Shown one piece after another: positions 1-25,225 of a stretch of DNA of 49,888 bases. Below the pieces are notes generated by a model. That model saw only the letters and a program-made list of their open reading frames with translations, ran no database searches and was not told where the DNA came from. Position numbers and translations under genes: made by a program. The stretch covers positions 1 through 49,888 of the forward strand of contig JARYLU010000020.1 in assembly GCA_029907475.1 (NCBI GenBank). The letters run 5' to 3'. The number at the start of each line of letters is the position of its first letter. Within the stretch, counting starts at the first letter, position 1. Source of the DNA: Bacillota bacterium (lineage in GTDB: Bacteria; Bacillota; DSM-12270; Thermacetogeniales; Thermacetogeniaceae).

Positions 1-195
1 GTGCTGGGGTAAAATATTTTTGCCATTGCCCTAAAACGGCCTATTCATCTTTACTTCCGGTCATCGCAATTGGCTCCGCAGAACTTCCCCCGGGCATCAA
101 ATGCACGCGGAAAAATAAACCCAGGGCCACCCTGCGTATTGGAAAAGGAAATAAGGTTAAATTACAAATTGAAAAGGAAAAAAAGGAGGGCTACC

Positions 196-300
196 ATGGA
201 GAAGCTAATTGCCGTCATTCTTCTGCTGCTTTTAGGAAGCACAATCATTTATATTACTTACACCAACGTCATTCTGCCGCTCAGAAAACCTCCTAGCTGA
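196..300 (+). CDS. Small single-membrane-span peptide (34 aa)
   Basis: A 34-residue reading frame starts at ATG 196 after an excellent AAGGAGGG ribosome binding site at 183-190. It is almost entirely one hydrophobic helix (residues about 4-27, rich in I, L and V) followed by a short basic, Pro-rich tail. This is the layout of a bitopic membrane micropeptide. The family is not recognised and no function is assigned. An upstream in-frame extension exists but lacks a ribosome binding site. Support is the ribosome binding site and the hydrophobic composition only. Confidence 0.55.
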   Translation: MEKLIAVILLLLLGSTIIYITYTNVILPLRKPPS

Positions 301-753
301 AAATTGCGCCCGGTACCTTGTACGGCACAGGGGGGCTTCTGTCCAGAATTGACCGGAAAGACGGCGAGGCCGGCCGTCTTTCGATCTTGAACCCAGAGCC
401 TCCCGAAGCGAGCCGTGGTGCTGTTACCCGCCACTCCATATGTCGCTTGTCAGAAGGCTTGCCTGGCTTAGTAGCGAGGGTAATAATCTGCGTAAGGCTG
501 CGTAAGGTCTTCGAGCGCAAGGATGACTTGGTTTGTATTTTTTATGGCAGATTCAGATCTGTCTAATGTAATGGTCATGCCGCTTGAACAGCCATCACCG
601 GGAACGGGGGAGCTGGAAAGATCAGGAGGGAAAACCAAACTGCACGGCTGTAACATTATTTCGGGACGAGAATATTATGATAGAAAAACTGCTTTTTTTA
701 TTGCAATTTTTATTTTTCTTGAGCAATTAACGCCTTATATGGAGGGGATTGTT
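301..753. other. Stretch without a convincing gene
   Basis: No frame here has both a start with a ribosome binding site and protein-like composition. It contains a GC-rich hairpin (357-381) and a short direct repeat of GCGTAAGG at about 490-507. The frame open from 523 runs into the gene at 754, but its first part looks non-coding. The length is compatible with a long leader for that gene. Confidence 0.4.
357..381 (+). terminator. Hairpin, possible terminator after the 34-aa peptide
   Basis: AAAGACGG (357-364) pairs perfectly with CCGTCTTT (374-381) around a 9-base loop. It lies 57 bases after the stop of the small membrane peptide. The run of T after the stem is short, so termination is only suggested. 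Confidence 0.4.
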
Positions 754-1182
754 TTGGTTAATGCTGATAATCATAAAGAATTACTTCAAGATGATATTAA
801 AATGGAAAATCACCCAGGGGATATCCCGCAAGAGGCAGTGGTTTCCGTTCAATCAAACCCATCTGAAAGCACCGAGGGTATCGCCAGCCACTTTGACGCG
901 GGGCTGAAAACCGTGGTTTTATGGATTTACAACATCAACCAGAACGGAACTGCCAACACTTTTCGGGAGGAGATGAGCCAGTTTTTTACCCGGAACGAAA
1001 ACGGCACCGTGGTTCTCAAGGACATGACCCCGGAAATGCTTGCGGAATTTTTCGCAAATTTGACAACAGCAAAGGAAATTAAAATACCTGACCTGGGAAT
1101 CCGTCTCATTCTGTTAATTTACAACTGCAACCAGAACGGATCAAGCAACATCGCCGAAGTTGCATATATGTCACAACCTTAA
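754..1182 (+). CDS. Protein with two curlin-like NQNG motifs (142 aa)
   Basis: The start is taken as TTG 754 because GGAGGGG (741-747) lies six bases before it; a longer frame exists upstream without that support. The N-terminal half is acidic and polar. Two copies of a motif, IYNINQNGTANTF near residue 62 and IYNCNQNGSSNIAEV near residue 127, fit the curlin repeat pattern Q-x-G-x-x-N-x-A used by CsgA/CsgB amyloid subunits. They are separated by a spacer of roughly 55 residues. No signal peptide is evident. The same motif ends both small proteins downstream (1408 and 1613), so the three probably work together, perhaps as a surface fibre or assembling matrix (inference). Base composition is AT-rich compared with the following metabolic genes. 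The family is not recognised beyond the motif. Confidence 0.6.
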   Translation: MVNADNHKELLQDDIKMENHPGDIPQEAVVSVQSNPSESTEGIASHFDAGLKTVVLWIYNINQNGTANTFREEMSQFFTRNENGTVVLKDMTPEMLAEFFANLTTAKEIKIPDLGIRLILLIYNCNQNGSSNIAEVAYMSQP

Positions 1183-1236
1183 ATTTTTCTCAAAAGTAAA
1201 ATTCAAGCTTCCATTATGTTATGTTTAAACACGATC

Positions 1237-1295
1237 ATCCCCCGTTAACCTCTTGAAGTCTTTCAGAGGTAGTTTAACTGGAAAATTCGGGGGAT
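1237..1295 (+). promoter_or_regulatory. Long structured leader hairpin upstream of the small NQNG genes
   Basis: ATCCCCCG (1237-1244) pairs perfectly with CGGGGGAT (1288-1295). Inside it GTTAA pairs with TTAAC (1274-1278), and CCTCT (1249-1253) with AGAGG (1265-1269). The stem-within-stem spans 59 bases and ends 112 bases before the next start codon. No T-run follows, so it is more likely an RNA control or processing element, or a site of recombination, than a plain terminator. Confidence 0.5.
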
Positions 1296-1407
1296 TAACT
1301 GTTTGTACCAGATTATAACTCCTAAGTAACATTTTTCAATTAGCCTGCATATTTTAGCATAGACTACCGGATAGCCAATTAGTTCAAAACAAAGGAGGGA
1401 TTAATTA

Positions 1408-1566
1408 ATGGATGACAAAAAGAAAGATATCGACATCGATCAAATTCAAGTGCCGGTCGCGGTAGCGATTCTTGGTGCAGCAGCCGCCGCTGCCGCAGCC
1501 TCAAAATGTATTTGTAAAAACGTGAACCAGAACGGTACTGCCAACAATTCAAATATTACGCAGTAA
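1408..1566 (+). CDS. Small Ala-rich membrane-type protein ending in an NQNG motif (52 aa)
   Basis: ATG 1408 follows AAAGGAGGG (1391-1399). The order is an acidic DIDIDQIQ segment, a hydrophobic VAVAILG plus poly-Ala stretch of about 16 residues, a C-x-C pair, and the tail NVNQNGTANNSNITQ. The tail fits Q-x-G-x-x-N-x-(A/S)-x3-Q, a full curlin-type unit. The last 46 residues are nearly identical to the next gene, so the pair is a recent tandem duplication. The poly-Ala helix could be a membrane segment or an export/leader region. A RiPP-precursor role is possible because the protein has a leader-like part and a small polar C-terminal part, but no modifying enzyme is visible. Confidence 0.65.
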   Translation: MDDKKKDIDIDQIQVPVAVAILGAAAAAAAASKCICKNVNQNGTANNSNITQ

Positions 1567-1840
1567 CATTATCCCGTCTGATCCACAGTCTAATGACAAG
1601 GGAGGGTTATAAATGGGAGAGAGTGAATTCAAATCCTTTATGGTAGAATACATGAACAATCTTAAAGAACTCACGGATTTAATGAAGAAAGCCAAAGACG
1701 ACATAGATATAGATCAAATTCAAGCACCGATCGCGGTAGCGATTCTTGGTGCAGCAGCCGCCGCTGCCGCAGCCGCAAAATGTAAATGCAAAAACGTGAA
1801 CCAGAACGGTACTGCCAACAATTCAAACATTACGGAGTAA
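1426..1840 (+). repeat. Tandem duplication of the NQNG mini-gene
   Basis: Segments 1426-1566 and 1700-1840 align without gaps at an offset of 274 bases and differ at few positions, many of them silent. The poly-Ala and NQNG coding parts are almost identical in DNA, which suggests recent duplication or gene conversion. Confidence 0.75.
1613..1840 (+). CDS. Small Ala-rich membrane-type protein ending in an NQNG motif (75 aa)
   Basis: ATG 1613 follows GGGAGGG (1600-1606). The paralogue of the 52-aa protein carries an extra N-terminal amphipathic segment of about 25 residues with a Lys/Glu/Asp-rich pattern. It is followed by the same DIDIDQIQ, hydrophobic AVAILG plus poly-Ala helix, C-x-C, and NVNQNGTANNSNITE tail. 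The tail carries three consecutive N-x-S/T sequons as well as the curlin-type spacing. The gene ends 13 bases before a strong terminator, so the cluster closes here. Function is unknown; a role in a self-assembling surface or spore structure is inferred from the motif only. Confidence 0.65.
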   Translation: MGESEFKSFMVEYMNNLKELTDLMKKAKDDIDIDQIQAPIAVAILGAAAAAAAAAKCKCKNVNQNGTANNSNITE

Positions 1841-1853
1841 AAGTTCTTTTTCT

Positions 1854-1885
1854 AAGACCGGCTAGCTGCTTGCCGGTCTTATTAT
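1854..1885 (+). terminator. Rho-independent terminator of the NQNG cluster
   Basis: AAGACCGGC (1854-1862) pairs perfectly with GCCGGTCTT (1872-1880) and is followed by ATTATTT. It closes the rightward small-gene cluster. Confidence 0.8.
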
Positions 1886-2055
1886 TTAAATCGGAGATTT
1901 TGTAAACCATACCGGCGCCTTACATTGCAACATCCTTATAAACGCCGTTCATCCCATCAAAAAAACCTCTGGCCCAGCCTCGTAATCTGGTTCAGCCTGT
2001 TGATTAGCATTCGAACTGGACTTTATCCTTTTTTCTCCCTGAGTAACAGCGGCTA

Positions 2056-3456
2056 TTAATTATTTAAAAGGTATTTATGTATCGCGGCAGCCGACTTTTT
2101 ACCGGCGCCCATCGCCTCAATGACCGTTGCCGCACCTGTGACGATATCCCCTCCGGCAAACACAGCGCCTTTGCTGGTTCTGCCGGTTGCCGGGTCGGCG
2201 ACAATATTACCCTTCCGGCTTACCTCCAAACCGGGGGTGGTACGGGAAATGAGGGGATTGGGCCCCTGCCCGATGGCTATGATCACCGTATCTGCCTCCA
2301 TGACGCATTCGGAACCCGGCACAGGAACCGGGCTTCTCCTTCCCGAGGCATCAGGTTCACCGAGCTTATAGCGCTGGCATACCACCGCCCTCACCTGGCC
2401 GCCCTCATCACCGAGAATCTTGACCGGACTGGTCAAGAACTGGAACTGAACACCCTCTTCGCGGGCGTGGTCCACCTCTATCTTGCGGGCCGGCATTTCT
2501 TTCTTCGATCTTCGATAGATAATCCAGGACTCTTCCGCCTCCAACCTGAGCGCCGTACGGGCAGAATCCACCGCTACGTTGCCCCCGCCGATAACTGCCA
2601 CTCTTTTCCCGATGCGGATAGGGGTTTGGTATTCCGGGAACAGATAGGCCCTCATGAGATTAACCCGGGTCAGAAATTCATTTGCGGAATAGACCCCATT
2701 CAAGTTTTCGCCTGGAATGTTCATGAAGTAGGGAAGCCCTGCACCTGTGCCGATAAAAACGGCATCATAGCCGGAGGTGAGCAGTTCATCAACAGTAGTG
2801 ATCTTGCCTACCACCATGTTGGTTTTTATCTCAATGCCCAGTTTCTTAATATTGTCGATCTCCCGCCTGACTATCTCCTTGGGTAAACGAAATTCGGGGA
2901 TCCCGTACACTAAAACCCCTCCCGGTGTGTGCAGGGCCTCGAAAACTGTCACCTGGTGCCCCAGCCTGGCCAGATCTGCCGCCGCAGTTAAGCCTGCCGG
3001 GCCTGACCCGACTACTGCCACCTTCTTCCCGGTCGGCGGTGCCTTTTCGATCAGGGAACCGCTGTTTTTTAACTCCCAATCAGCTACGAACCTTTCCAGG
3101 CTCCCGATAGCTACCGGCTCCCCTTTCTTCCCCCGGACACAGTATTTCTCACACTGGTTTTCCTGAGGACAGACCCGGCCGCAAATGGCCGGCAAATTGT
3201 TTTTTTCCCTAATTTTTGCAACTGCCTCTTTGTATGCTTGATTTTTGATGTGTTCTATAAAGGAGGGAATCTCTACACCCACCGGACACCCTTCAATACA
3301 GCCGGGCTTCTTGCATAACAAACAGCGAGAGGCCTCGAGAAGGGCCTGTTGCTCGCTGTACCCCAGGGCTACTTCATCAAAATTCTTAACCCTTGAGCGG
3401 GCATCCCGAACCGGCATAGGCTGTCGCCCCAGGTTCATCTTATCTGGCAAAGGCAA
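2056..3456 (-). CDS. nfnB: NADPH-binding flavoprotein subunit, NfnB / glutamate-synthase small-subunit type
   Basis: This 466-residue protein has the layout of the GltD-like family: an N-terminal iron-sulfur domain with two cysteine clusters (CLLCKKPGC.EGCP near residue 46 and CGRVCPQ..CEKYC near residue 93), then an FAD-binding GSGPAG (about 152) and an NAD(P)-binding GGGNVAVDSART (about 292). It partners with the gene just upstream in transcription, whose end overlaps its start by 22 bases. That pairing is typical of NfnAB (NADH-dependent reduced ferredoxin:NADP oxidoreductase) or sulfide dehydrogenase SudAB, rather than glutamate synthase, whose large subunit is absent here. It probably balances NADH, NADPH and ferredoxin in the cytoplasm. 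Confidence 0.88.
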   Translation of the reverse strand: MPLPDKMNLGRQPMPVRDARSRVKNFDEVALGYSEQQALLEASRCLLCKKPGCIEGCPVGVEIPSFIEHIKNQAYKEAVAKIREKNNLPAICGRVCPQENQCEKYCVRGKKGEPVAIGSLERFVADWELKNSGSLIEKAPPTGKKVAVVGSGPAGLTAAADLARLGHQVTVFEALHTPGGVLVYGIPEFRLPKEIVRREIDNIKKLGIEIKTNMVVGKITTVDELLTSGYDAVFIGTGAGLPYFMNIPGENLNGVYSANEFLTRVNLMRAYLFPEYQTPIRIGKRVAVIGGGNVAVDSARTALRLEAEESWIIYRRSKKEMPARKIEVDHAREEGVQFQFLTSPVKILGDEGGQVRAVVCQRYKLGEPDASGRRSPVPVPGSECVMEADTVIIAIGQGPNPLISRTTPGLEVSRKGNIVADPATGRTSKGAVFAGGDIVTGAATVIEAMGAGKKSAAAIHKYLLNN

Positions 3457-4283
3457 TCACTTCCCGTACAATAAATTTCCATAGCTTTCTTTTCCTCCGC
3501 GCGGAACATCCGGGCGCGCTGGATGACAACCGGCCAATCGACCAGATGTCCGTCAAATGCGGGCCCGTCTACGCAAGCAAATCTGGTCTCCCCGCCGACA
3601 GTAACGCGGCAGGCACCGCACATTCCGGTGCCATCAACCATAATGGGGTTCAGGCTTACGACTGTTTTGATCTGGTACGGTCTGGTAAGTTCAGCCACTG
3701 CTTTCATCATAACAAGTGGTCCCATAGCCACCACCAGACCGATCCCAGCCTCTTTCTCCAGAATTTTCTTTAACACGTCAGGAGCACACCCCTGCTGACC
3801 CGCTGAGCCGTCATCTGTGGCAGTAAACAATTGGTCACTGACTGCTTTCATTTCTTCAACCAGTATGAGGTAATCGCGACTGCGGGCACCTATGACAGAT
3901 ATTACCTCGTTGCCGGCACGCTTGAGAGCGCGGGCTACCGGGTAGATAGGGGCAACCCCGACGCCGCCCCCCACACAAATAACCCTTCCAAACTCGTCAA
4001 TCTCGAACTGTTTGCCCAGGGGACCCACAACATCCAGGATATAATCCCCTTCATTTAATTTACCAAGTTGAACAGTTGTTCTACCCACCTCGCGAAAAAT
4101 GAGGGTCAGAGTACCGCTCTTTTGCTCGGAATCAGCTATTGTGAGCGGGATCCTCTCGCCCCTCTCACCTATCCTTAAAATAATGAACTGTCCGGGCTGG
4201 GCCCTGGCTGCTATCTCCGGGGCAAAAACGTTAATAAGCTTGATCGACGGGGCCAGGATTTTTTTCTTGATGATTCTAAACAT
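3435..4283 (-). CDS. nfnA: FAD/NAD-binding [2Fe-2S] subunit, NfnA / SudB type
   Basis: This 282-residue protein resembles the dihydroorotate dehydrogenase electron-transfer subunit PyrK: an FAD-binding ferredoxin-reductase fold over residues 1-95, an NAD-binding part (GGGVGVAPIYPVARAL near 108), and a C-terminal [2Fe-2S] site with cysteines in MCGAC and FACVDGP near 215-235. The start has an AGGAGGTG ribosome binding site. It is first in a two-gene leftward operon with nfnB. In the known Nfn complex this subunit oxidises NADH and bifurcates with ferredoxin. The SudB name is an equally valid family label. Confidence 0.87.
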   Translation of the reverse strand: MFRIIKKKILAPSIKLINVFAPEIAARAQPGQFIILRIGERGERIPLTIADSEQKSGTLTLIFREVGRTTVQLGKLNEGDYILDVVGPLGKQFEIDEFGRVICVGGGVGVAPIYPVARALKRAGNEVISVIGARSRDYLILVEEMKAVSDQLFTATDDGSAGQQGCAPDVLKKILEKEAGIGLVVAMGPLVMMKAVAELTRPYQIKTVVSLNPIMVDGTGMCGACRVTVGGETRFACVDGPAFDGHLVDWPVVIQRARMFRAEEKKAMEIYCTGSDCLCQIR

Positions 4284-4400
4284 TTTGCACCTCCTATCTT
4301 ATTATACTCCCTGAGCCGGGCCTTGCAAAATACGCCTGGCAGCTCCTGGTGCTACTTTTCGGCCACAAAAGCCAAACACAACGAGCCACCAGTATTAGGT

Positions 4401-4660
4401 TTTCGGGGAAATCTCGGGAAATCTCGGGGGAAATCTCGGAAATCTCGGGGACACCATACTCAATTATCTTTTAGCAGCATATCCCAAATTGCAATGCCCC
4501 TCAAAGTCCTTGGAACGCCATTCTGCCGGCTAAAGCAGATCTATATTCTTCTTCCCAGGTTGCCCCGCTGCGTGTAAGATATATCGGGCGGGGTGACTCG
4601 CTCTGTTCTAACCGTACCTGTACCATCCTGACCTCCAGGGGGAAATTTATCATACTGTTT
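4401..4660 (+). mobile_element. Non-autonomous element, left-end copy (truncated)
   Basis: A short array of (G)GGAAATCTCGG units (4403-4450) leads into the left terminal sequence GGGGACACCATACTCAATTA (from 4447). The following 200 bases align, with many changes, to 8878-9080, for example around CTGCGTGTAAGATATATCGGGCG against TTGCGTGTAGAACACATCGGGCG. The right terminal inverted repeat seen in the second copy is missing, so this copy is decayed. It encodes nothing. Confidence 0.65.
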
Positions 4661-4703
4661 CTCTCCCGAACGTTAGGAAACTATATGACCTGTAAGCCGA
4701 TAG

Positions 4704-4766
4704 CTTATAATTAGCGACTATAAGGCCTCATCTTATATTCCGTGATTATAAGTTATTTTCTTATAT
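4704..4766 (+). promoter_or_regulatory. Array of CTTATA dyads at 28-base spacing (C-box-like operators)
   Basis: Two 21-base dyads have the form CTTATA-N9-TATAAG, at 4704-4724 and 4732-4752, and a third left half-site CTTATAT lies at 4760. The starts are exactly 28 bases apart. The second dyad contains TTCCGTGATTATA, close to C-boxes bound by controller proteins of restriction-modification systems. It lies about 280 bases before the putative endonuclease gene. No controller gene is visible here. Confidence 0.5.
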
Positions 4767-5035
4767 TATGGATTGGATACTCTAGCTTGCAGTCATCTTC
4801 ATGAGGATTACCCCCAGGGAATTTGAAAGCGTTTTAATCTCCTGGTCCAAATGGCATGTGTTTGGCAACAGATCCGTTGACGATTACAACTATGTTTTGC
4901 TTTAACAGTTTTAAACCCCTCCTCTTGCTGAATTAGCTTATTTTGAAAAATCATATGACACCTTAAAGAAGGATTTACTATTTTCTTAGAGAAACCTCCA
5001 TTTGTCAACAATAGCAGCCGTGGAGGCGCGATATT

Positions 5036-5983
5036 ATGGTGGATAAAAGAACAAGCAGGGTCCAAGGCTATCCCCGGAAAAGTGATGATCTTTTAGATGA
5101 ATCTTATCTGCAGCCACATATGTATAAGCCAATAAAACATGAAATGCAAGCAATAATAATTGATGCTATAAGGCAGGCAAATAAAAAGTCCAGCAGGGAA
5201 ATATTAAAGATACCTGATGGAGTAACAGCAAAACAGCTAACGGAAATATATAGAAAAGCAGGAAAAGCATTATTTAACTATTTTAAAAAAACCTATGCTG
5301 ATCCCGCATCAACGGCATATTACTATCTAAATAAGCACTATTCTGTAATTGGTAGAGAACTGTTCAAAAATAAAGCACTCCATGATGAACGTATGAACGC
5401 AGGTTGGAGATACCAGTACATCGCTAAGGGTGCCGCACTAGTTACCCAAAGATTTCAAACCATATCCGACATTGGCAGCAGTGGCACAGATTTTACTGCA
5501 ACTATTGCCATGAAAGGCTCCAACTCTGAAACGTTAAGCATTTATGCTTCAGTTAAAAACCGTTCCAGTACAATATCTGGTTCGAACTGGCCGAAAGCAA
5601 TACAGGCTCTTGAGGAAACAGCTAAAAGAGACATTAACCGAATAGGCCCCTATATATGCGTGTTTTGCCTCACCATGGAAAAAGGCAACCGTGTGATAAA
5701 GGTTGCAAGGGAGACGAATATAGCCTATTCACTTAATGTTGAGGTCTGGCCTGCTAATTTCTTCTGGCCGTTTTTCACTAACCACTCTTACGAAGAAGTT
5801 GTAAAAACAGTCATGACTGTATTACCTGATGTGGAGGAACAAGACAGTCTGGGCGTAGATGTTCCCGGGGAGCTGCTCGAATCTTTCGGAGAGCACTGCA
5901 AGGCTAAAAAACTCGTGGACGATAATGGGTATTTCAATAATCCTGAAAGACTTGTAGAATTCTTTGTACGGGGCAGCCGCTGA
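5036..5983 (+). CDS. Putative type II restriction endonuclease
   Basis: This 315-residue protein has no clear family match by eye. The convergent neighbour is a TSPPY DNA methyltransferase, and the C-terminal half has a nuclease-like core: GTDFTATIA (D152) followed by a strand SIYASVKNR (S172-V-K174), matching a degenerate PD-(D/E)xK site in which the acidic residue before the lysine is replaced. The following segment with SGSNWPKAIQALEE is helical. The start at ATG 5036 has GGAGG ten bases upstream. Base composition is lower in GC than the flanking metabolic genes, which suggests transfer. The role, cleaving unmodified DNA at the site protected by the neighbour, is inferred from context. Confidence 0.55.
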   Translation: MVDKRTSRVQGYPRKSDDLLDESYLQPHMYKPIKHEMQAIIIDAIRQANKKSSREILKIPDGVTAKQLTEIYRKAGKALFNYFKKTYADPASTAYYYLNKHYSVIGRELFKNKALHDERMNAGWRYQYIAKGAALVTQRFQTISDIGSSGTDFTATIAMKGSNSETLSIYASVKNRSSTISGSNWPKAIQALEETAKRDINRIGPYICVFCLTMEKGNRVIKVARETNIAYSLNVEVWPANFFWPFFTNHSYEEVVKTVMTVLPDVEEQDSLGVDVPGELLESFGEHCKAKKLVDDNGYFNNPERLVEFFVRGSR

Positions 5984-6040
5984 AAAAATAAATAGCCTGT
6001 ACCACACGATACAGACTACATAACCCGGTGGTAAAAAGCT

Positions 6041-7660
6041 TTAGACCATATGGAAAATACTCTCTCCATAGGGGTTTTTGTCCCGGGCGGTACGGTTGAG
6101 CACCGGGCGCTTGAACTCCTGAATTATCTCCAGGCCCGCCCGCCTGGCAATATCGGGGTACAGGCCGTGCCGATCGTTGGCAACGATAAAGATATGGCTG
6201 TTCTGGGTAAGAAATCTCTTGCAGTTGATTAACGCCTCACTGATGCCCCGGACATAATCCTCTTGGGCTTTGAGTCCCTTGCCCTTGCTCGATTTGCCGA
6301 TCTCCTCCTCATCCCGCCTGGTAAAACCGAAAAGCTCATAAGCATATTCATGTTGCTGATGATAGTCTAACTGCCCCACATAGGGGGGCGAGGTAAAGAT
6401 GCCCTGGATTCTCTGCTTTAACAGCAGGTCGTAGAAGGCCGGGTTCTGCCGGCGGACGGCGGCGAAGATGTCGGCGGTCCTGGCGTCCTGGTCAATGAGG
6501 GCATGGTAAGCCCCGGTTTTGACCGCCTGGAACTCCCTGATCCGCCTGACGGAATCTTTGTAATATCTGGTAAATTTCTCAGCCATGGAAAGAACCGGCC
6601 GGCAGATCTTTTTGTGCTTATAGCAGTAGTACGGCTCGAAAACAGGCGTTTCCAACCTCTCCAGCTGGTAGTGCGGGGTGGCCCGGCAGGAGCGGAGCGT
6701 CCGGGAGAGAATCACCGTCAGCAGCCTGCGCTCGGCTTCCGGGAACCGCTGCAGGCAGTCCCGGCCGGCCAGGACTTCTTTGAGCACCGGGGCGGCGTAC
6801 CAGGTATCCAGAAAGTCAGAGCCTGCCAGCCCATCCTTTAAAACAGGCTGGTATATCTTAAGCAGCTTCTGCCAACCCCGGTTCAGTTCATGCATGGCCG
6901 CCTGCGCTGCCGCTTTCTCGTCAAGCCCTGCATGGGCAATCTGGTATCTGTAGTCGTTGGGAAAGTATTTTCTGTTGACACCGGCCAACAGTTCGTCCAG
7001 TTCCCTTTCCAGGGCGGCAATGCCGGAGCTATCATGCTCCCTCTTGATGCAGCAATATACCTCCTGGCACCCGGCAAGTATGGAGTCCGGGTTGTAGCTC
7101 CCCAGCTTGGCCTCGGCGATCAGGCAGTTGAAGTAGGAAATATCCAGTCCGATGGAGTGCAGGCCCAGTTCGTTGGCCTGGACCAGGGTGGTACCAGAAC
7201 CGGCGAAGGGATCAAGAATAATATCGCCCTGGTGAAAGTAGACCTCTCGCTTGAAGCTGTCGGTATGGCTGTCCAGAAAATACTCCACTAGCTGGGGGAT
7301 GAACTTGCCTTTGTAGGGGTGGAGCCGGTGCACGTGTTTGGTGGTCTCGGCCTCTTTGACCCAGGCAAAGGACAGATCCCAGTTTATATCCTCACCAAGG
7401 GCGTTCTCGAACTTATGGCGCATCCCGTTTGCGTGCTGTTCGTAATAGTCTCGCAGCTCTTCCAGGGAGACAAGGGTTTGGTTTTGCTGCTGGTACTTCC
7501 GAATTCTCCCGTACTGTAGAAGGTAGGTGATGTTGCTGGCGGTCACATCCTTCTTGGTAAATCTGGATGCCCATGCTGCCGCCGCGTTGATGGTAAGCAT
7601 GGTTAAATCACTCTCAGCGGTCTTTTCTGGACAATATGCTGCGAAGATTGCCGGCTTCAC
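6041..7660 (-). CDS. DNA methyltransferase of the TSPPY (N4-cytosine / N6-adenine) class
   Basis: The start is taken as GTG 7660 because GGGAGGG lies six bases before it, giving 539 residues. DPFAGSGTT (about residue 150) is the SAM-binding motif I, and FTSPPYVGQLDY (about residue 427) is the catalytic motif IV characteristic of N4-cytosine and some N6-adenine methyltransferases. The long region between the two motifs is where target recognition would sit. The gene converges on the putative endonuclease with 57 bases between stops, and the two form a restriction-modification unit. Solitary methylation is the alternative if the neighbour is not a nuclease. Confidence 0.85.
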   Translation of the reverse strand: MKPAIFAAYCPEKTAESDLTMLTINAAAAWASRFTKKDVTASNITYLLQYGRIRKYQQQNQTLVSLEELRDYYEQHANGMRHKFENALGEDINWDLSFAWVKEAETTKHVHRLHPYKGKFIPQLVEYFLDSHTDSFKREVYFHQGDIILDPFAGSGTTLVQANELGLHSIGLDISYFNCLIAEAKLGSYNPDSILAGCQEVYCCIKREHDSSGIAALERELDELLAGVNRKYFPNDYRYQIAHAGLDEKAAAQAAMHELNRGWQKLLKIYQPVLKDGLAGSDFLDTWYAAPVLKEVLAGRDCLQRFPEAERRLLTVILSRTLRSCRATPHYQLERLETPVFEPYYCYKHKKICRPVLSMAEKFTRYYKDSVRRIREFQAVKTGAYHALIDQDARTADIFAAVRRQNPAFYDLLLKQRIQGIFTSPPYVGQLDYHQQHEYAYELFGFTRRDEEEIGKSSKGKGLKAQEDYVRGISEALINCKRFLTQNSHIFIVANDRHGLYPDIARRAGLEIIQEFKRPVLNRTARDKNPYGESIFHMV

Positions 7661-7901
7661 TATCATCCCTCCCAAGAAGAGTGAAGACCAAGTCGCCCGT
7701 TATCGATCGGGCTAACTCGGCTTTGTAGCGCGAAAAATCTGGCCTTCCCACCAGCGTCCCACCCTTCCGCCGGGTTTGTATTTTATTTCTATGCGGAAGA
7801 GCATTTTCCTGCAATGTGAAATTATTTAAATTTTGCACCAGAGAACAGCTCTTGGGACTTCCTAGGAGTACTTTTTGCAGGGGTCTGAATCGAATCTTAA
7901 G

Positions 7902-8387
7902 TTACTGAACGAGAATCAATGGTACCCCCTGAATTAAGCTAAATGCTCTCATTCCATGCGGAAGTCGATTATTTTCATCAAAAGTACACCTGGAGCAGAT
8001 CTGCTTTAGCTTTTGCAGGAATAATACTGACACCAGCGGTAAATGTAGCAAACCACCAAAAACGAGTGCATCAAGGTTAAGGTACTCGATCCGCTCCTGG
8101 TAGTATTTTTGCCGGGACATGTCCTTCTGTTTGGCATTAAGCCTCCCCCGTAATCCCTGATTCTTAAATGAACCATTCTTGCGCAAGGTACCTGCCTTAC
8201 CAATGTAAAGCAGTTTAAATTCCTTTTTCTTGCAGCCAAAGATAAGATAGACACCTGGTTCTTCGGGCACCCCTTCTTCTTTGGAGCGTTTGCTGATCCT
8301 TTCCCCTTTTCTCAATTCAAAAGAACCGTGCTTGGGAAAACGTTGATGATAATCCGCCAGTAGTTCATTGAAGGTCATTTTAATCAT
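7902..8387 (-). CDS. GIY-YIG domain protein (161 aa)
   Basis: The core [23 protein letters not shown] (residues about 42-64), followed by LRGRLNAK, matches the GIY-YIG nuclease fold. The first Tyr/Ile positions are GVY and LYIG, and an Arg lies downstream. The start ATG 8387 overlaps the stop of the upstream YjbQ gene by eight bases, so translation is probably coupled. A second in-frame ATG lies at 8378. The usual C-terminal helix with its acidic residue is hard to see. It may be a stand-alone endonuclease or a decayed one. It sits in the island between the two element copies. Confidence 0.6.
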
Positions 8388-8797
8388 CACCAATGATCTT
8401 GACCAGTACCCGTTTTTTCCGTTTTCCGTCGAACTCACCATAAAAAATTTGCTCCCAGGGCCCCAGATCCAGCACCCCCCCGGTAATGGCGACCACTACT
8501 TCCCGGCCCATGATGGTCCGTTTCAGATGAGCATCGGCGTTGTCTTCAAAAGTGTTGTGGCGGTAGCGCTCATAGTTTCTCCGGTGCCAGGCTCTCCAGC
8601 CATTGTTCAAAATCCTGATGCAGCCCCGCTTCGTCATCATTAACAAAAACACTGGCGGTAATATGCATGGCGTTGCATAAAACCACCCCTTCCTGGATAC
8701 CGCTCTCCTTTACACATTCCGCAACAAGTGGGGTGATATTGATAAATTCCCGGCGATTTTTGGTGTTGAACCAGAGCTCCTTACGGTAATGCTTCAC
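8380..8797 (-). pseudogene. YjbQ (UPF0047) family protein, frameshifted
   Basis: The N-terminal half runs from 8797 ([16 protein letters not shown], then [23 protein letters not shown]) to a stop at 8570. The C-terminal half continues in another frame ([44 protein letters not shown]). Together they cover a full YjbQ protein of about 138 residues. The break is one extra base around 8580-8592 in GGAGAAACTATGAG. The family is linked to thiamin-phosphate-synthase-like activity. Both halves are well conserved, so the frameshift is recent or a sequence error. Confidence 0.8.
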
Positions 8798-8825
8798 GGC
8801 ATTTCTCCCCTTTTATCTTCAAAAT

Positions 8826-9134
8826 CGGAAATCTCGGGGGAAATCTCGGGAAATCTCGGGGGAAATCTCGAAATCTCGGGGACACCATACTCAATTATCG
8901 TTACCGAAAATTTTGTCCCTCAAATTATGAAACTTGGAACACCATTCCGCCAGCAAAAGCAGATATGGTCTTCCTCGCAAAAAATGTTTGTAGCCTCGGT
9001 GCTCCGTTGCGTGTAGAACACATCGGGCGCCGTTCCCTCAACGCGCTATACTGACCGTACCTATACCATACTGTACAGTGAGCATAGTTTCCAGGCTAAT
9101 AAATTAGTATGAAAATTAAGTATGGTGTCCCCCG
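8826..9134 (+). mobile_element. Non-autonomous element with terminal inverted repeats (MITE-like), complete copy
   Basis: An array of GGAAATCTCGGG units (8826-8877) abuts the left end CGGGGACACCATACTCAATT (8877-8896). The right end AATTAAGTATGGTGTCCCCCG (9114-9134) is its inverted complement with one mismatch over about 20 bases. The interior of about 215 bases has no gene and resembles the copy at 4401-4660 in the same direction. The end sequence recalls palindromic units mobilised by IS200-like/RAYT transposases, but no transposase is present. Confidence 0.7.
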
Positions 9135-23755: not shown

Positions 23756-24595
23756 TCAGCTGGCCTGAGAATCCAGCAAAACAAGCAAAATGCTGCGGAT
23801 GGCAGTCTTTGCCACATCGGCGCGGGAGCCCCCGCTTAAAATGAAAAGCAGAGGTTTTCCCGCCGCAAACTTCTTGACCTTTGCGGCAAAAGCCGGGTAG
23901 GCGGCGTCGGTGAGGCGAAACCCTCCGTAGTCCTTGAAATGGGAGTCATGCCCGAAAATCACGAACATAAAATCGAACTCGTAGGACCGGCTGAAGGCCT
24001 CGTCCAGGGCCCTGAGAAAAGCCTCGTCATCAGCCGCCCTCAGGCCGAAGTCGTAGTTGTGGTAAACCTCGTCGGCTCTGCTGTCCCAGCCAGCGTAAAA
24101 GTTCAGGTGAATTACCTCGGGGTCCTTTCCCAAAAGGTCGCGCGTGCCGTCCCCGAAGTGGGGGTCGACGTCGAGGACCAGAAACCTTTTCAGCCCGTAT
24201 CTTTTTCTGAGGTGAAGAACTGCCGCCGCAACATCGTTTAAATAACAGAAACCCCAGAAATGGCTGCGGCCGGCGTGGTGGCCTGCGGCCCCCACGTAGG
24301 CAAAGGCCGCCTCCGCTTCTCCCTCCGCCAGCGCCGCAGCCCCCTGAACGACCCCGGCGCAGGAAAGGGCCGCCACATAGTAAAATCCTGCTTCTTTCAC
24401 CTCTGCGATGTGTGCGGGGGTATGAATTTGCTCGATCAGGCTGTGAATTTCGGGGGTCAGCACCGGGACCGCGACCTGAAGCCGGTTGGCGGCCACCAGG
24501 TCATTTAAATTTTCAAAAGATGGGGCAACCCGGTCCTTTAAAACCGGATGGCCGTACCTGCCGAAGTCATCATGGTAAAGCACGAGTACCTTCAT
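23756..24595 (-). CDS. Histone-deacetylase-superfamily hydrolase (AcuC / acetylpolyamine type)
   Basis: ATG 24595 follows a GGAGGAGGA ribosome binding site. The 279-residue protein has the zinc-hydrolase landmarks GAAGHHAGRSHFWGFCYLND (histidine pair and the GFC(Y/F)xND motif, about 107-126), LVLDVDPHFGDGTRDLL (metal-binding D-x-D and H, about 145) and a C-terminal ILSGG. Known members deacetylate acetylated lysines, polyamines or acetoin-related substrates, and the specificity is not visible here. The upstream region was cut into by an integrase remnant that begins directly before this gene. Confidence 0.82.
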   Translation of the reverse strand: MKVLVLYHDDFGRYGHPVLKDRVAPSFENLNDLVAANRLQVAVPVLTPEIHSLIEQIHTPAHIAEVKEAGFYYVAALSCAGVVQGAAALAEGEAEAAFAYVGAAGHHAGRSHFWGFCYLNDVAAAVLHLRKRYGLKRFLVLDVDPHFGDGTRDLLGKDPEVIHLNFYAGWDSRADEVYHNYDFGLRAADDEAFLRALDEAFSRSYEFDFMFVIFGHDSHFKDYGGFRLTDAAYPAFAAKVKKFAAGKPLLFILSGGSRADVAKTAIRSILLVLLDSQAS

Positions 24596-24640
24596 TTCCG
24601 TCCTCCTCCTCAATCAAGGAAAGGTCACCTGACTCTCCCG

Positions 24641-25225
24641 AGCAATTACCCAGGCTTCCTGCCAGCATATATTGCCGTCAACACCGGACTGCGGATGGGA
24701 GAAGTGTTAGGCCTGCGCTGGCAGGATATAGACTTCAAGCGGGAGACATTGACGGTAAAGCAAACCCTACAAACCGTTAACAGGGAGATAAGAATTAGAC
24801 CCAAAGCAAAGACCAAAGGCAGTCAAAGAACCATTGACCTGCCGAAGAACTTAATCCAGGAATTGAAGAAACACCGGCTGGAACAGAAGAAAAACATGCT
24901 TGCCTTTGGAGAGCTGTACCAAAAGCAGTATGACCTGGTATGCTGTAAAGAGGACGGATCACCCATTAAGTCAAGCTCATTCGGCAGTTACTTCGTAAGC
25001 ATGGCAAAACGCTGCGGGTTGGATATTTCCTTCCACGCCTTACGCCACACCCACGCCAGCCTTTTGATTAAGGCAGGAGTCCACCCAAAGGTTATTTCTG
25101 AAAGGTTGGGACATTCAAATATCGGCATTACAATGGACTTATACGGCCACCTTATGCAGGGTATGCAGAAGGAAGCGGCCAATAGGATAGACAACATCAT
25201 AACTGGAATGAATTTCTCTCGGTAG
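24641..25225 (+). pseudogene. Tyrosine recombinase (phage-type integrase), C-terminal remnant
   Basis: Homology begins at YPGFLPAYIAVNTGLRMGEVLGL (catalytic Arg in TGLRMGE) and runs through HALRHTHASLLIKAG (H-x-x-R), LGHSNIGITMDLYGH (H/W position and the catalytic Tyr) to 25225. The catalytic domain is complete, but the N-terminal arm-binding and SAM-like domains, about 170 residues, are absent. The sequence joins the start of the deacetylase-like gene. It ends 82 bases from the 3' end of tRNA-Arg, the usual place for an integrase beside its attachment site, so this is a scar of an excised or decayed element. Confidence 0.8.

Follow-up and report, generated by a model that had tools for sequence, protein, structure and literature searches.

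The window, that is the whole stretch of 49,888 nt that was analysed, begins at the end of a contig (position 1), and close to this end three adjacent genes lie on the forward strand: one encodes a protein with two copies of an NxNQNGxxN unit, the other two encode mini-proteins with one copy each. Homologues were found in three genomes from three other families of the same phylum, referred to as G021, G031 and G316, whereas G000 denotes the genome of the window itself. The genes and the elements around them are the following.

754–1182 (+): gene of the two-unit protein P0001 (142 aa, TTG start); homologues in G021 and G316, dN/dS ∼0.23
937–957 (+): first unit of P0001, NQNGTAN, from the motif scan
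1129–1149 (+): second unit of P0001, NQNGSSN, from the motif scan
1226–1305 (+): stable hairpin in the gap that separates the two-unit gene from the minis; it may serve as terminator or attenuator (z = −2.67)
1328–1356 (+): AACA-N16-CATATTTTA, a predicted promoter of the sigma-K type that lies 51 nt ahead of the mini operon
1358–1366 (+): second CATAGACTA, just past the predicted promoter of the mini operon
1408–1566 (+): gene of mini-protein P0002 (52 aa) with acidic start, Ala-rich segment and KCICKNVNQNGTANNSNITQ tail; 86% DNA identity to the P0003 gene
1525–1545 (+): unit of P0002, NQNGTAN, from the motif scan
1613–1840 (+): gene of mini-protein P0003 (75 aa) with longer N-terminal helix, Ala-rich segment and KCKCKNVNQNGTANNSNITE tail; homologues in G021 (one), G031 (two) and G316 (two)
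1799–1819 (+): unit of P0003, NQNGTAN, from the motif scan
1853–1881 (+): 10-bp stem behind the mini operon with an only moderately T-rich tail, likely a transcription terminator (z = −3.45)

A six-frame scan located the motif NQNG[TS][AS]N at 937, 1129, 1525 and 1799, all on the forward strand, and nowhere else in the window. As a DNA pattern these four matches compare with 0.01 expected from shuffles, so the four motifs in three adjacent genes that had been pointed out in a sequence-only reading of this DNA are real. The same reading had taken the two mini-genes for tandem duplicates, which is borne out by an identity that extends over 162 nt; the 34 nt that encode the motif are 76–82% alike at all four places. 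Plausible ribosome sites, read from the sequence, precede all three genes (∼741–747, 1394–1400 and 1600–1606), and since homologues exist elsewhere as well, we regard all three ORFs as real genes. P0001 most likely starts at the TTG at 754, because its homologue in G021 also begins with TTG-GTT behind a strong ribosome site. Three other loci of the window were recorded. At 196–300 (+) a gene with a strong ribosome site and no Pfam match encodes a hydrophobic peptide of 34 aa. A Type II DNA methyltransferase gene (6041–7675, −; PADLOC E 3.5e-191) lies between genes at 5036–5983 (+) and 7902–8441 (−), both without Pfam match, which are possibly an undescribed restriction partner. A phage-type integrase gene at 24548–25225 (+; Pfam E 7.4e-26) is a possible island border.

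Searching 61 genomes turned up a neighbouring pair of mini-protein and two-unit homologues in G021, and in G031 two minis that are not linked. A profile search over 398 genomes added G316, whose closed chromosome has the genes in the order mini, mini, two-unit, so that homologues with a conserved motif, on which the sequence-only reading had made its idea depend, exist in three further genomes. The mini-protein occurs in 4 of the 398 sampled genomes and the two-unit gene in 3; the homologues of P0001 share 63–65% identity in G021 (E 1.6e-58) and reach a profile E of 1.3e-66 in G316, and no two-unit gene was detectable in G031, one of whose two mini copies lies at a contig edge. The cassette of one or two minis plus the two-unit gene is thus found in three genomes of three families, and as order and neighbourhoods differ between them, the cassette genes belong with each other and not with a neighbour. 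Ratios of dN/dS of ∼0.23–0.28 in most measurable pairs, and of 0.39 in the recent tandem pair, indicate purifying selection.

The profile searches covered one phylum, and those at class or order level around G021, G031 and G316 covered very few genomes. None of the sampled genomes from the genus and family of the window yielded a homologue, and this distribution suggests horizontal spread or frequent loss. Scans of genome contigs with P0003 and A1 gave nothing; these are weak negatives, as confirmation by tblastn is insensitive for a short Ala-rich query. Weak profile matches in other genomes (read in part, 12 loci of one set) look like chance, and the one in G009 looks like ribosomal protein L7/L12. 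P0003 itself shows a sub-threshold match to the N-terminal dimerisation domain of L7/L12 (PF16320; E 3.9e-5, 23.7 bits at a cut-off of 25) that spans the helix and the Ala-rich stretch. However, this domain is matched by only two of seven family members, and the match is best taken as common Ala-rich composition. The family has no counterpart in Pfam, NCBIfam or PHROGs, a credible relative was not found among solved structures, Rfam gave zero matches on window positions 1–9000, and a literature search found no paper on the motif or on curli-like spore proteins. The genes form a rare, undescribed family of small proteins with a strictly conserved short unit.

All seven minis share a variable, acidic and helical N-terminus, an Ala-rich segment that often follows a Pro, one invariant Cys and a tail of the form N-[VI]-NQNG-x-[AS]-N, and no signal peptide is apparent in them. 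P0001 has an acidic N-terminus and two units, each a hydrophobic strand followed by NxNQNGxxN, which lie ∼60 aa apart and are joined by a conserved linker. Over the 13 units the core reads N-x-N-Q-N-G-x-[AS]-N, in which the N, N, Q, N, G and N positions are invariant and I, V or C stands between the first two Asn. The C-x-C that the sequence-only reading had listed for the two tandem duplicates turned out to be specific to the window's genome; the terminal Gln it had seen in one tail is indeed present there (P0002) and in no other of the 13 units. Structure prediction was poor (pLDDT 35 for P0001 and 59 for P0003) and too weak for a comparison with fold libraries; the P0003 model gives a hint of two helices followed by a short strand pair around NQNG.

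The upstream regions were compared with the sigma-K promoter consensus of C. difficile, which has AC at −35 and a CATA-type −10, whereas sigma-E has ATA at −35 (PMC3789822). A perfect AC-N17-CATAnnnTA lies 40–51 nt before three lead genes, with identical spacing: the first mini of the window, the two-unit gene of G021 (50 nt) and mini b of G031 (40 nt). Mini a of G031 has a 7/8 match with the same spacing (CATAAGATA, with GC replacing AC), and the sites before the two-unit gene of the window (6/8) and the G316 operon (7/8) are imperfect. Perfect sites thus occur in three of seven upstream regions versus 1 of 115 in the background (binomial P ∼2e-5, an optimistic value, since the pattern had already caught the eye in two of the seven when the test was made). 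Each of the four genomes carries sigK, three of them with a match above the family cut-off and that of the window with the gene in two halves. The idea of a spore-surface role, one branch of the sequence-only reading, gains independent support from these sigma-K type promoters together with sigK in the four genomes. Scans for sigma-70 promoters and terminators gave nothing decisive; a sigma-70 type promoter (11/12) was noted at 1312–1339 (−), between the two-unit gene and the minis and antisense into the former. A split sigK was also observed in two relatives of the window's genome: the halves lie at G000:C39:4774–5094 (L072) and G000:C16:42344–42694 (L073), in G006 within C1:1687410–1691783 (L071) with a gap of ∼3.7 kb, and in G001 within C2:79675–108538 with a gap of ∼28 kb. 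In G000 and G006 a serine recombinase of ∼520 aa directly adjoins one half, and the arrangement resembles a skin-type element that is cut out as the cell sporulates.

The units had originally been described as curlin-type, and a curlin-like amyloid would make each mini one Q-x-G-x-x-N rung of a cross-beta stack, the fibre being nucleated by the two-unit protein. The likeness to the CsgA/CsgB repeat is clear in the core: Q-x-G-x-x-N is found in 13 of 13 units, always with I, V or C two residues before the Q; the second residue past the final N is Ala, Ser or Phe, and the minimal published curlin repeat is X6QXGX2NX10 (PMC3521004). When flanks were scored with a matrix from ten CsgA/B repeats, P0002 reached 4.7 (null fraction 0.007), similar to CsgB repeats against a CsgA-only matrix. 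However, none of the 12 other units has flanks that score above the 5% null level, and positions that are variable in CsgA/B are invariant Asn (N, N, N) here. The Curlin_rpt profile (PF07012) returned zero matches at E ≤ 1 in the four genomes although the E. coli control was matched, and hmmscan likewise gave no curlin match. Instead of several tandem repeats with terminal Gln there is one unit per mini and a distant pair in P0001; Dueholm and colleagues, who recovered curli from just one strain of Firmicutes, assumed that homologues carrying one repeat or none do not function (PMC3521004). Searches by tblastn with the E. coli K-12 Csg proteins found no csgA/B/C/E/F/G-like sequence in the window or at the homologous loci (all E ≥ 1), in line with the earlier remark that the window has no csgE/F/G-like gene. 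Curlin membership was rejected on these profile, flank and Csg searches, and the two-unit protein as an obligatory nucleator is weakened by G031, where two minis (one at the contig edge) occur and a two-unit gene was not detectable. That the family works like curlin is possible, and we consider the amyloid reading as a whole unlikely.

Other roles were weighed as well. Small proteins anchored in or active on the membrane through their Ala-rich segment, for example a sporulation-stage toxin or a bacteriocin-like peptide, would agree with the hydropathy of the best 19 residues (1.55–2.08 in all seven minis, about at or above the cut-off) and with the conservation of this segment, which Cys and Lys adjoin. 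Its insertion energies, however, sum to positive values of +2.7 to +5.2 (position-independent), transporter, immunity or processing genes do not recur at the loci, and the conserved core is the hydrophilic tail and not the hydrophobic part, which leaves this reading doubtful. A RiPP precursor, with an acidic helical leader and a C-terminal core KCxNxNQNGxxNN, had been named as an alternative; it would fit the small size, the conserved motif with one Cys and the tandem copies. A modification enzyme, protease or exporter did not recur at the four loci when neighbouring genes were judged, mostly by eye and for ten genes by Pfam, and the NxNQNGxxN unit is also found in the interior of the longer two-unit protein, well away from any C-terminal core. 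As the tail of P0007 has no Ser/Thr after its Cys, lanthionine is excluded there, and we regard the RiPP reading, including a lanthipeptide, as very improbable. Glycosylation, the other alternative named, is likewise disfavoured: N-x-S/T sequons are absent from the tails of P0004 (NGA, NNA) and P0007 (NGV, NNA), so neither sequons nor lanthionine are family traits. Finally, the genes could ride on a mobile or genomic island and serve some non-structural function, for example as a stress or defence accessory. The patchy spread, missing in sampled relatives, and the GC content of ∼0.41 versus 0.52–0.58 in adjacent genes speak for this, as do toxin-antitoxin type HEPN/nucleotidyltransferase-like pairs that ring the G021 cassette (L035, G021:C114; 1642–2510, 3029–3749 and 5237–6068, two by Pfam and the third by eye). 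Yet phages, plasmids and viral contigs gave zero matches for the family, PADLOC gave none, and the promoters point to sporulation; we judge this reading to be as unlikely as the amyloid.

The explanation we favour, tentatively and at somewhat less than an even chance, is that sigma-K probably drives these genes late in the mother cell and that their products are small structural components of the spore coat or crust. Coat proteins that originate in the mother cell require no signal peptide, and coat and crust proteins evolve fast, many being without recognisable relatives. This account is the most economical because it covers the missing export signal and partner enzymes, the late promoter, the small self-complementary units, the Cys, Lys and Gln available for cross-links and the lineage-specific spread. 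In Bacillus and Clostridia, small coat and crust proteins that depend on sigma-K resemble the minis in promoter arrangement, in being small, signal-less and lineage-specific, in bearing Cys and Lys and in needing no partner enzymes. In contrast, the window family is unrelated in sequence to any Pfam or NCBIfam family tested, and we did not find an Ala-rich helix with a single NxNQNGxxN tail described. No spore gene recurs beside the cassette at the four loci, and a role as core coat protein is excluded by the presence of the family in only 4 of 398 genomes.

For the coat or crust account we infer expression time, spore location and assembly as follows. After transcription by sigma-K RNA polymerase late in the mother cell, the signal-less minis would be made there and travel to the surface of the forespore in the manner of coat proteins. 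The N-terminal helix and the Ala-rich segment may pack or adsorb, while the exposed tail, with its invariant Cys and the NxNQNGxxN unit as a beta-turn, could stack or cross-link subunits through disulfides and perhaps Gln–Lys bonds. The two-unit protein might act as an accessory linker that joins two tails, a guess from its two unit copies; G031 seems to manage without it. A more specific version, which we hold to be quite unlikely, is a spore-surface polymer in which tiny one-rung proteins, made by the mother cell under sigma-K, would stack into a fibre or lattice without secretion machinery and be cross-linked by the two-rung protein, as a convergent, export-free counterpart of curli.

The finding is a compact, conserved and undescribed family that combines a strict nine-residue unit with a testable sporulation signal. 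If its members polymerise, they would represent a minimal self-assembling protein of ∼60 residues with one unit per chain, which could be useful for spore surfaces and as a biomaterial.
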